Below, piece after piece: positions 26,771 to 32,155 of a stretch of DNA of 32,287 nt. Source of the stretch: Pseudomonadota bacterium. Its GTDB lineage: Bacteria; Oederibacteriota; Muellerivitia; Muellerivitales; Muellerivitaceae. The stretch covers positions 1 through 32,287 of the forward strand of contig JAJPJW010000208.1 in assembly GCA_021324075.1 (NCBI GenBank). The letters are read 5' to 3'. A program made the translations under genes and the position numbers. Under the pieces are notes generated by a model. It ran no database searches and had not been told where the DNA came from. It was given only the letters and a program-made list of their open reading frames with translations. How positions within the stretch are numbered: the first letter of the stretch is position 1; each line of letters opens with the position of its first letter.

Positions 26771-27817
26771 TTGTACAAGCTCCTTCGACCTTTCCTGTTC
26801 TCCCTCCAGCCGGAGACCGCCCACCACCTGGCGGTGACGGGCTTGAACCTTTCCAAACCCATCCTTCCCCTTTTGTCTCCCTGGTTGTCCACCCGGGACA
26901 CCCGGTTGGAACGGAAAGTATTCGGCTTGACCTTCCCCAACCCCGTCGGCCTGGCGGCGGGCCTGGACAAGAACGGCGAATTGGCTGATGTTTGGGGCCG
27001 GATCGGGTTCGGATTTGCCGAACTGGGTACTTTTACGGCCCTGCCCCAGCCGGGCAACGACAAACCCCGGATTTTCCGGTTCCCCGACCAAAAAGCCCTC
27101 ATTAACCGTATGGGTTTTCCCAACGTGGGGGCCCAGGCCGTGGCTTCGCGGCTCAAAAGGCTCAAGGATAGCGGTCATTGGCCTTCCATCCCGATCGGCC
27201 TGAATATCGGCAAGAGCAAAGCCAGGCCCCTGGAAGAGGCGGTGGAGGACTATCTGGAATCATTGCAACACCTCAAACCCTATGCCGACTACCTGGCGGT
27301 CAATGTCAGTTCCCCCAATACGCCGGGTTTGCGCCAACTTCAGGCGGCGAAGCCTTTAAAGAAACTCCTTTCCGCCGTCGTGAAGGCTTCTTCGGGCAAA
27401 CCTGTGCTGCTCAAGCTGGCCCCGGACCTGGAATCGAAGACCCTGCGGGAAGCCGCCGCCACCGCAGTGGCCGCTGGCTGTGCGGGGCTGATCGCCACCA
27501 ACACGACCCTTTCCCGGGAAGGGTTGCCCGCGGGGGAATATCCCGAGGGGGGCCTTTCGGGGGAACCGCTCCGGAAAAAGGCCCTGCTGAGGCTGGAGGA
27601 CCTGGCCCGCATGACCAAGGGAAGGGTGCCCCTGGTGGCCGTGGGGGGTATTTTTACGGCCCAGGATGCCCGGGAAAGGCTGGAGGCGGGGGCCAGCCTG
27701 GTCCAGGTCTATACAGGGTATATTTATGAGGGCCCCGGATTACCCACCCGGCTTTGCCGGGAACTGCTGAAAAGCAGTCCGCGGTCGGCAGTTCGCAGTC
27801 GGCAGTTTAAAGCTTGA
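26771..27817 (+). CDS. pyrD: Dihydroorotate dehydrogenase, class 2 (quinone-dependent)
   Basis: The 348-residue product starts at TTG 26771 with GAGG 6 nt upstream. It has the N-terminal membrane-associating helices of class 2 enzymes (YKLLRPFLFSLQPETAHHL), FPNPVGLAAGLDKNGE, the FMN and substrate loop VNVSSPNTPGLR with the catalytic Ser, and ATNTTLSR with GGLSGEPLR. It oxidises dihydroorotate to orotate with quinone, the fourth step of UMP synthesis. The natural end is probably near ELLK; the last ~13 residues (PRSAVRSRQ region) come from a heptamer repeat that reads through the expected stop position. pyrF and pyrE follow further downstream. Confidence 0.95.
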   Translation: MYKLLRPFLFSLQPETAHHLAVTGLNLSKPILPLLSPWLSTRDTRLERKVFGLTFPNPVGLAAGLDKNGELADVWGRIGFGFAELGTFTALPQPGNDKPRIFRFPDQKALINRMGFPNVGAQAVASRLKRLKDSGHWPSIPIGLNIGKSKARPLEEAVEDYLESLQHLKPYADYLAVNVSSPNTPGLRQLQAAKPLKKLLSAVVKASSGKPVLLKLAPDLESKTLREAAATAVAAGCAGLIATNTTLSREGLPAGEYPEGGLSGEPLRKKALLRLEDLARMTKGRVPLVAVGGIFTAQDARERLEAGASLVQVYTGYIYEGPGLPTRLCRELLKSSPRSAVRSRQFKA

Positions 27818-27923
27818 GTCCTTTTATGACGATTTCGAGGGGAAATCGATGAAAAAAACGAACCGTAAAATTCACATCACAATGAGGGTTTTACTGCGGA
27901 CTGTGAACTGTGGACTGTGGACT
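27776..27923. repeat. Inverted-repeat element with five-heptamer arms, spanning pyrD end and rlpA start
   Basis: Left arm 27776-27810: units AGTCCGC, GGTCGGC, AGTTCGC, AGTCGGC, AGTTTAA. Right arm 27889-27923: five units of NNNNACT form whose complements are AGTCCAC, AGTCCAC, AGTTCAC, AGTCCGC, AGTAAAA in matching order. The third unit carries the T variant in both arms. The loop is 78 nt. The left arm codes for the PyrD tail and the right arm for the hydrophobic core of the RlpA signal peptide. Confidence 0.75.
27830..27851 (+). promoter_or_regulatory. Hairpin presenting the rlpA ribosome-binding site in its loop
   Basis: CGATTTC (27830-27836) and GAAATCG (27842-27848) pair perfectly around the loop GAGGG, which is the Shine-Dalgarno sequence; the start ATG follows at once (27849). 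It lies in the loop of the larger heptamer element. It could fix the accessibility of the ribosome site; the short arms may also be chance. Confidence 0.4.
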
Positions 27924-28367
27924 TCCTTATTTTTTGCCGTGGGCTGCGTACCCATAAGGCAAACCCTGGGGGGCGGCCACGCCGCCGTCGCCAAGGCCCC
28001 TTCGGGATCGGCCACCGTTTTTGAAAGTCCGGAGGACTACAAGAACGCGGGCAAGGACGCCTGGAAGGACGAAATGGAAGGCGTCGCTTCCTGGTATGGG
28101 GAGGATTTCAACGGGAGGCTGACGGCCAGCGGGGAAGTCTACGACATGTACCAGATGACCGCGGCCCACAAAACCCTGCCCCTGGGCACGGTGGTGAGGG
28201 TCCACAACCAGGACAACGGGAAGACGGTCGAAGTGAGGGTCAACGACCGGGGGCCTTACGTGAAGGGGCGCATCATCGACCTCTCCCGCACGGCGGGCCG
28301 GGCCATCGGCATGCGGGAAACGGGAACGGCCAACGTGAAGCTGGAGATCGTCCGCTGGCCGAAGTGA
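27849..28367 (+). CDS. rlpA: RlpA-like septal ring lipoprotein / lytic transglycosylase
   Basis: The 172-residue product has a lipoprotein signal (LFFAVGC, lipidated Cys near residue 33) and a double-psi beta-barrel domain: GVASWYGEDFNGRLTASGE, MTAAHKTLPLGTVVRV, VRVNDRGPYVKGRIIDLSR and AGRAIGM. These are the signature stretches of RlpA, which cleaves denuded glycan strands in peptidoglycan. No SPOR domain is present, so it is a short form. The signal peptide's hydrophobic core is encoded by a heptamer array, so its N-terminus has been rebuilt by the repeat. Confidence 0.92.
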   Translation: MKKTNRKIHITMRVLLRTVNCGLWTSLFFAVGCVPIRQTLGGGHAAVAKAPSGSATVFESPEDYKNAGKDAWKDEMEGVASWYGEDFNGRLTASGEVYDMYQMTAAHKTLPLGTVVRVHNQDNGKTVEVRVNDRGPYVKGRIIDLSRTAGRAIGMRETGTANVKLEIVRWPK

Positions 28368-30299: not shown

Positions 30300-30303
30300 T
30301 GAA

Positions 30304-30756
30304 AGTTAGGAATTAGGAGTTAGAAGTTAGGAGTTTAAGGCGAAAGGCGCGCTCGGATTGGCCTCGAACAGCATCATTCAGCAAAAGAGTTTTGATTTCG
30401 CCTTAAAGATTATAAAACTGTATCAGGTACACAGGAAAAAAGGCGAGTCTATTTTGGCAAGGCAGATCCTCAGAAGCGGGACAAGTATTGGCGCTAATGT
30501 GGAAGAGGCCTTGGCGGCCCAAACCCGGAAAGAATTTCACTCTAAAATGACGATTGCGTTTAAGGAATGCCGGGAAACCCGTTATTGGTTGAGGCTTTTA
30601 AAAACTTCCGGAATTGTCCCTTATGATTATGCTGAATGCTTGAAAGATGTTGAAGAGTTAAACCGAATATTGTCTTCGATCACTAAAAGTACAAAAGCTG
30701 AAAGTAATTAATCTGGAAGGTGTAAACTCCTAACTCCTCACTTCTAACTCCTGACT
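30304..30756. mobile_element. Heptamer-arm inverted-repeat element carrying a four-helix-bundle gene
   Basis: Left arm 30304-30338: AGTTAGG, AATTAGG, AGTTAGA, AGTTAGG, AGTTTAA. Right arm 30722-30756: five units ending ACT, whose complements read AGTCAGG, AGTTAGA, AGTGAGG, AGTTAGG, AGTTTAC. The inner 30 nt of the arms match at 26 positions. The 383-nt loop is almost filled by the gene at 30358-30711. The element begins 4 nt after the pyrE stop codon. The layout recalls intervening sequences of 23S rRNA, which are stem-loops carrying a four-helix-bundle ORF, but here the site is not rRNA. Confidence 0.7.
30358..30711 (+). CDS. Four-helix-bundle protein (S23/IVS family)
   Basis: The 117-residue product (TTG 30358) reads KSFDFALKIIKLYQ, ARQILRSGTSIGANVEEALAA, FHSKMTIAFKECRETRYWLRLL and EELNRILSSI, which is the pattern of the 23S rRNA intervening-sequence / four-helix-bundle family (TIGR02436 type). 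It is basic and forms multimeric bundles in known structures; related Avd proteins assist reverse transcriptases in diversity-generating elements. The gene is AT-richer than its flanks and lies wholly within the loop of an inverted-repeat element. Function in this setting is unknown; a role in maintaining or moving the element is a hypothesis. Confidence 0.85.
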   Translation: MASNSIIQQKSFDFALKIIKLYQVHRKKGESILARQILRSGTSIGANVEEALAAQTRKEFHSKMTIAFKECRETRYWLRLLKTSGIVPYDYAECLKDVEELNRILSSITKSTKAESN

Positions 30757-30771
30757 TAACTGGACTTGAAT

Positions 30772-32018: not shown

Positions 32019-32033
32019 GAATGATGGGTTTGA

Positions 32034-32138
32034 AGTTTTGAGTGTTGAGTTATGAGTGTTAAGTTTTGGCCTGTTTTTGAACGGGTACCGTTCAAAAACA
32101 TTCATTAACTCAAAACTAAAAACTGAGAACTCAAAACT
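32034..32138. repeat. Compact heptamer-arm inverted-repeat element with a perfect central hairpin
   Basis: Left arm 32034-32068 has five heptamers: AGTTTTG, AGTGTTG, AGTTATG, AGTGTTA, AGTTTTG. Right arm 32104-32138 has five complementary-facing units whose complements read AGTTTTG, AGTTCTC, AGTTTTT, AGTTTTG, AGTTAAT. The 35-nt loop holds a perfect 13-bp hairpin, TGTTTTTGAACGG (32072-32084) and CCGTTCAAAAACA (32088-32100), with a 3-nt loop. It lies between a stop codon (15 nt upstream) and the ribosome site of the next gene. It could also work as a bidirectional terminator. Confidence 0.75.
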
Positions 32139-32155
32139 TTTCGATGGGAGGTTTT

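Follow-up and report, generated by a model that had tools for sequence, protein, structure and literature searches.

S23 genes between inverted five-unit repeat arms point to an overlooked class of mobile element in bacteria

Main finding

Genes for S23 four-helix-bundle proteins recur in many bacterial groups as the sole gene between two inverted arrays of short tandem repeats. The presence and absence of this package, as read from sequence, points to an overlooked class of mobile element. The comparisons below establish its architecture, its generality, the coupling of arms to protein, a five-unit rule, and dispersal between loci and lineages. To our knowledge, S23/four-helix-bundle genes are common in environmental bacteria and have been without an assigned function since the 1990s, when only the S23 genes inserted in rRNA were considered mobile. 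We think it fairly probable that the package constitutes a minimal mobile element, with five-unit arrays for ends and a pentameric S23 protein of its own that reads them.

The S23 element downstream of pyrE

The window, the whole stretch of 32,287 nt that was analyzed, carries the element between the end of pyrE and a gene for a small membrane protein. The left arm (30302..30336, + strand) starts 2 nt past the pyrE stop codon and consists of the heptamers AAAGTTA, GGAATTA, GGAGTTA, GAAGTTA, and GGAGTTT. It is followed by the S23 gene (30358..30711, + strand; 117 aa from the listed TTG start) and by the right arm (30724..30758, − strand), which reads TAAGTCA, GGAGTTA, GAAGTGA, GGAGTTA, and GGAGTTT from outside to inside on the − strand. 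Each arm is a run of heptamers of the form NNARTKA in register, the right arm being the left one inverted, and an inverted-repeat search of the window returned the arms as a 35-nt pair (30303-30337 and 30723-30757), 86% complementary and 385 nt apart. The ORF is thus enclosed by terminal inverted repeats. No Rfam family matched the element over any gathering score.

The protein belongs by sequence to the S23 / 23S_rRNA_IVP family, exceeding the curated cut-offs of both PF05635 (87.8 bits, E 6.7e-25, cut-off 33.8) and TIGR02436 (103.3 bits, E 7.9e-30, cut-off 24). Its predicted structure has four helices (pLDDT 93), and the nearest fold found with Foldseek is 2RLD (TM 0.87); 2GSC matches at TM 0.78. 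The original prediction, an S23/IVS-type gene in the loop of a heptamer-arm element, is thereby confirmed, with inverted arms of exactly five heptamers each.

Gene-less elements

Two other elements of the window have the same 5+5 build and no gene. The arms of the first (27774-27925; loop about 86 nt) are read as protein: the left (27774..27808, +) codes for the C-terminus of the pyrD ORF, and the right (27891..27925, −) for part of the signal-peptide region of an rlpA-like lipoprotein (ORF 27849-28367). The second (32032-32140; loop about 42 nt) has a left arm of GAAGTTT, TGAGTGT, TGAGTTA, TGAGTGT, and TAAGTTT (32032..32066, +), an apical stem GTTTTTGAACGG-GTA-CCGTTCAAAAAC (32073..32099, unstranded), and a right arm at 32106..32140 (−). 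These neighbors, placed at 27776 and 32034 in the original prediction, had been expected to share the arms of the S23 element. Their gene-less heptamer architecture stood; the arm sequences proved different, AGTYSGC-type and AGTTTTG-type, respectively, against AGTTAGG. The notion of a gene-carrying form with gene-less relatives is still supported; the build is common to all three, the heptamers are not.

Such hairpins recur in the genome, as counted in samples of 0.29 and 0.84 Mb. The smaller sample (291,634 bases) has eight period-7 inverted pairs and its shuffles none; at control periods there are none at 5, 8, 11, or 13 and three at 10. The larger (836,047 bases) has 18 period-7 pairs vs. 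one in three shuffles. Plain tandem tracts of period 6, 9, and 12, which are frequent in the genome, were excluded. Fourteen of the 18 pairs have loops of 7-138 nt and are gene-less, and four have loops of 372-403 nt, three of these being known S23 genes. Five gene-less AGTTTTG-type elements have common outer arms and an apical stem whose sequence is different in each; in the four sisters of the window element, stems of unrelated sequence stand where GTTTTTGAACGG-GTA-CCGTTCAAAAAC stands. That the stem is kept despite differing sequence speaks for a role of hairpin shape as well. Another abundant hairpin family is built of longer and less regular units of the CACAGAGG / CGCGGAGG type (L024 6179-6332 in the same genome; around 2200-2400 of L188 in genome G030); 26 period-9 inverted pairs were counted in 836 kb, and no gene was seen in the CACAGAGG / CGCGGAGG-type hairpins.

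Periodic arms at S23 genes of other bacteria

The window genome (G000) has four S23 genes and its congener G002 three, and all seven are enclosed by period-7 inverted arms, with a different heptamer in each. For a wider view, S23 genes were taken from a species-wide set, in which one genome per species was scanned (80 S23 loci from some 20 phylum-level groups), and from genomes of the window's phylum. Of 147 S23 genes, 91 lie between period-7 inverted arms found within 200 nt, as compared to 4 of 1850 control placements and none in shuffles. Many of the genes lacking period-7 arms have arms of 8-, 9-, 10-, or 13-nt units, and when all unit lengths are counted periodic inverted arms are present at 73 of the 78 S23 genes of the species-wide set. 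In a replication set chosen on family score alone, arms were found at 23 of 30 genes (one of the 23, L278, is doubtful) vs. 1 of 180 control placements, and all eight plasmid copies inspected have them. The labels of unit length are ambiguous for L002 and L031 (mixed 7/8), L175, and L278. Collecting such genes from many genomes had been proposed as the check on the idea, and most homologues lacking the arrays as the outcome that would count against it; the check is strongly positive, and most homologues have arms. Composition or coding can be set aside as the source of the arms, because other periods, shuffles, and control placements fail to reproduce them.

Two locations may be mentioned here. 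In a Lysobacteraceae genome (L336, G076), the S23 gene lies between carA- and carB-like genes, within GGGACCC heptamer arms. In cyanobacterial plasmids, S23 elements lie between drmD-type helicase and methyltransferase/restriction genes, or adjoin a DNA methylase gene (L200, L211, L212, L204, L206).

Five units per arm

Exactly five cores are present in 94 of the 184 heptamer arms; another 35 arms have four cores and 18 have six. The median number of units per arm is 5.00 for 7-mers, 5.12 for 8-mers, 5.22 for 9-mers, and 4.75 for 10-mers, corresponding to arms of 35, 41, 47, and 47.5 nt; the arms of the single 13-mer element have 4.9 and 5.1 units. What is constant across elements is thus the number of units, near five, while the length of the arm varies. 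Since these counts cover 94% of the species-wide set, the peak at five does not reflect a truncated tail. In the genome sample, where most elements are gene-less, 17 of 36 arms have five units. Some cyanobacterial arrays far exceed five units, which counts against the rule.

The S23 proteins with solved structures are homopentamers: 2GSC and 2RLD contain five chains per entry, and for Xcc0516 five four-helix bundles are described as making up the assembly (reference in PMC3936711; see also PMC4990558). The simplest reading would be one S23 subunit per repeat unit.

Within the arms, cores are better conserved than spacers: the mismatch between the two arms of an element is 0.19-0.26 in cores and 0.34-0.38 in spacers. 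In a mirrored-unit test, the spacer identity was 0.64 with units mirrored vs. 0.55 unmirrored (p 0.0006). With cores conserved above spacers and spacers only slightly mirrored, the arms look like arrays of a recognized core at both ends, in an inverted-repeat relation that is real but loose. That the mirroring is partial counts against recognition of the ends as proposed here.

Coupling of arm sequence and protein

Unit length (7, 8, 9, 10, or 13 nt) follows the S23 clade in the sequences compared. On a tree of 152 S23 proteins, which has few columns and many open forks, unit length takes 18 changes vs. a mean of 46.7 for shuffled labels. Nearly all 8-mers belong to one starred clade, in which they account for 11 of 12 rows; the 9-mers and the 10-mers fall in a single starred clade each. 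Among heptamer elements, arm sequence is correlated with protein identity (Mantel rho 0.614), and the correlation holds for pairs from different phyla (0.386; permutation maximum 0.225). For example, a Planctomycetota S23 gene is 66-76% identical to Bacteroidota genes, and the arms are of the AATTACG/AATTAGG type in both. The polarity of the unit is also mostly fixed, ARTK reading from outside to inside in 86 of 98 heptamer elements. By these sequence comparisons, the correlation shows the arms and the gene moving together; it is not evidence of binding, and joint inheritance alone could explain it.

Filled and empty sites

Gene order around pyrD-pyrF-pyrE is conserved among relatives, which allows the junctions of the window to be compared. 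The S23 element is missing after pyrE in G026, G029, and G030, and only a partial left arm, AAGGTTAGGAATTCGGAGTT, is left in G002. Element-free strains had been suggested as something to look for at this site, and the pyrE 3' region is indeed not invariant. At the same junction, G029 and G030 (L187, L188) have another hairpin, of the GTAGGGGCG...CGCCCCTAC type, and the junction looks like a hot spot for hairpin elements. The gene-less element at 27774-27925 is absent from the corresponding junction in G001, G002, G026, and G029. At the junction of the 32032-32140 element, a heptamer hairpin of another type (AGGTGTC) stands in G002, and no such hairpin is present in G026 or G029.

Filled and empty sites were also found in Nostocaceae plasmids. 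In those of Nostoc TCL26-01 and Anabaena cylindrica an S23 element lies between cas1 and cas2, and in two other plasmids cas1 and cas2 are 2 bp apart or overlap. In the filled sites (L202 2401-2930; L208), the last residues of Cas1 are replaced by an arm-encoded sequence of the KSQKLKGKREES type. Some flanking bases at the Nostoc junction are replaced and no clean target-site duplication was seen, a point against the reading favored here. 23S_rRNA_IVP genes in cas loci have been listed earlier as candidate cas genes (PMC3936711); those reported may, by this comparison, be insertions.

The same element is found at different loci, with filled and empty sites. In Microcystis, S23 occupies two loci, A and B, each with or without it among 12 genomes; in the three genomes with both copies where this could be measured, the two S23 genes are 95.5-98.8% identical. 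Of 12 genomes compared at locus B, eight have S23 and three have other heptamer arrays. Among the four S23 genes of the window genome, pairwise identity does not exceed about 55%, indicating no recent burst of transposition there, which also counts against the favored reading.

The main rival to an element handled by its own protein is that the arrays themselves move or expand, by slippage or by recombination between dispersed heptamer arrays, with S23 being one of several loop cargos and having no role at the ends. Locus A of Microcystis speaks for it: among 12 genomes, arms of the same kind enclose S23 in six and an unrelated non-coding cargo in four, one has a solo array of AACTGAT units, and one a different heptamer element. 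Unit numbers differ between Planktothrix plasmids by exact multiples of 7, that is, by whole units, and most of the elements found in the window genome are gene-less. However, arrays moving alone give no reason for unit length and heptamer to follow the S23 clade from phylum to phylum, or for the number of units to stay at five over unit lengths from 7 to 13. We regard this explanation as unlikely, even as the strongest competitor.

Relation to 23S rRNA intervening sequences

The closest known system is the 23S rRNA intervening sequence, which with its S23 ORF is known in Leptospira and Coxiella (Ralph and McClelland 1993, as cited in PMC4990558). The protein family is the same, and the ORF occupies the loop above a stem of about 28 bp formed by terminal inverted repeats; in Coxiella the 28-bp stem is cut by RNase III, and tandem heptamers, GACAGAT, precede the ORF in numbers that vary between strains (PMC4990558). 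The distribution is sporadic and mobility has been proposed. The Coxiella sequence is reported to have heptameric repeats at its 5' end (PMC4990558), which strengthens the link to these sequences made in the original prediction. Unlike them, the window element lies between protein genes, outside rRNA; elements of its type have five-unit arms on both sides and gene-less relatives; and their unit sequence and length vary with the S23 clade. No 23S signature was found within 3 kb in 80 GTDB loci. Because the rRNA location, the defining feature, is missing, we do not file the window element under 23S rRNA intervening sequences; most likely they represent one branch of this class, established in rRNA.

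The Coxiella anatomy (terminal stem, S23 ORF in the loop, heptameric repeats; PMC4990558) also suggests an element acting in RNA: the arms would pair in the transcript, RNase III would excise or trim the hairpin, the insertion would be tolerated, and S23 would bind the excised RNA. The apical stems that gene-less elements retain with unrelated sequences fit this. Against it, the 80 GTDB loci examined show no 23S rRNA signature, the spacers are poorly mirrored, and the conservation of the cores goes beyond the needs of pairing. As a full account we find it improbable, but it is compatible with, and not exclusive of, end recognition by the S23 protein.

Symmetry of the arms

Counted by gene direction, the upstream and downstream arms are alike in units (5.08 vs. 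5.25) and in core identity (0.865 vs. 0.869). The arms are thus similar whatever the direction of the S23 gene, as the ends of an element should be. This symmetry speaks against an autoregulatory operator, by which S23 would bind repeats in its own 5' leader and control its own translation, as TRAP does. The S23 start codon is close to the left arm (median distance 13 nt) and often overlaps it, and the published TAACTGA arrays of Beggiatoaceae are just upstream of start codons (PMC4679880), both of which would suit an operator. However, an operator confined to the 5' leader would have the better arm upstream; the downstream arm is as long and as conserved, and the gene-less elements have two arms too. 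We consider this reading very improbable.

Other related systems

Avd, the accessory protein of diversity-generating retroelements (DGR), has the fold and superfamily of S23, and the predicted window protein matches it in the solved complexes 8UB7, 8UB8, and 4DWL (TM about 0.7; Foldseek E 0.04 or worse); the original prediction noted that Avd-type relatives work with reverse transcriptases. That S23, like Avd, partners a reverse transcriptase copying the hairpin RNA is hardly credible: RVT_1 (PF00078) has no match in the 98%-complete window genome or in G001 and G002, and of 45 genomes of the phylum 34 are without a match, although S23 elements are present in many of the 34.

The REP/BIME elements with their RAYT (TnpA-REP) proteins are similar in that they too are short hairpins scattered over a genome that also encodes their partner, whose gene has the same palindromes on its flanks. 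They differ in that the window arms are periodic arrays and the S23 protein is a helical bundle without known catalytic residues. A RAYT was rejected as the mover, since no match to the Y1 transposase (PF01797) was found in the window genome, and five control genomes match.

Heptamer arrays themselves have been described before. In Xanthomonas, GGGAATC repeats form many inverted pairs, and Nostoc has GGGGATT arrays (PMC4692102). These resemble the present elements in being 7-nt units dispersed between genes, and X. campestris, with about 70 convergent inverted heptamer pairs, is the species of the S23 protein crystallized as a pentamer, Xcc0516. The arrays are treated as G-quadruplex repeats in PMC4692102, which leaves four-helix-bundle genes unmentioned. 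Similarly, TAACTGA direct repeats upstream of start codons are known in Beggiatoaceae and cyanobacteria (PMC4679880), and the identical heptamer makes the arms of Microcystis and Nostocales S23 elements; that paper describes direct repeats and draws no link to S23. The published arrays of Xanthomonas, Nostoc, and Beggiatoaceae are probably related to S23 elements. We did not find S23 genes linked to flanking heptamer arms in the open PMC literature; an earlier description in subscription papers or preprints is possible.

One S23 clade is without flanking arms in all 19 of its rows. In 16 of the 19 (L150, L152-L155, L157, L161-L163, L165, L045, L048-L051, L054), the gene follows a tRNA gene (Ser, Glu, Asp, Met, Arg, Ala, Gln, Asn) or the tmRNA gene on the same strand, at a distance of 180-530 nt. 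In the gap, a terminator-like stem is connected to the tRNA 3' end, and in most cases there is also an inverted-repeat hairpin of period 7 or 8, frequently containing (G)CGGTC. The clade looks like a second S23 element type, residing at 3' ends of structural RNA genes.

Proposed mechanism and significance

The mobile element that we favor would be about 460 bp long, with ends made of inverted arrays of about five tandem units (7 nt in the window) and a sole gene for an S23 four-helix-bundle protein that would form a homopentamer. Each ring would most likely read one arm, one subunit per unit, through the conserved ARTK core, and would mark and handle the ends while an arm is single-stranded or folded into a hairpin, either as DNA in replication or as RNA. 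Because the element encodes no transposase, the movement is proposed to be finished by host replication, repair, or recombination functions. The gene-less 5+5 hairpins would be non-autonomous relatives, usable in trans. In this scheme the binding, its stoichiometry, the strand bound, and the chemistry of movement are what we infer.

To the wider proposal we give somewhat less than even chances. It holds that S23 proteins are the end-recognition rings of widespread transposase-free mobile elements, the pentamer wrapping a five-unit arm with one subunit per unit and the clade setting the unit length from 7 to 13 nt, and that 23S rRNA intervening sequences and the S23 type at tRNA/tmRNA 3' ends are branches of the class.

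These results connect the S23 genes with the many orphan heptamer hairpins of bacterial genomes, and a simple, testable rule is offered for them, five repeat units per end and five subunits per ring. If true, this would be a mobile element that recognizes its own ends by a non-enzymatic ring, and many of the palindromic heptamer arrays that lie between bacterial genes would be explained.
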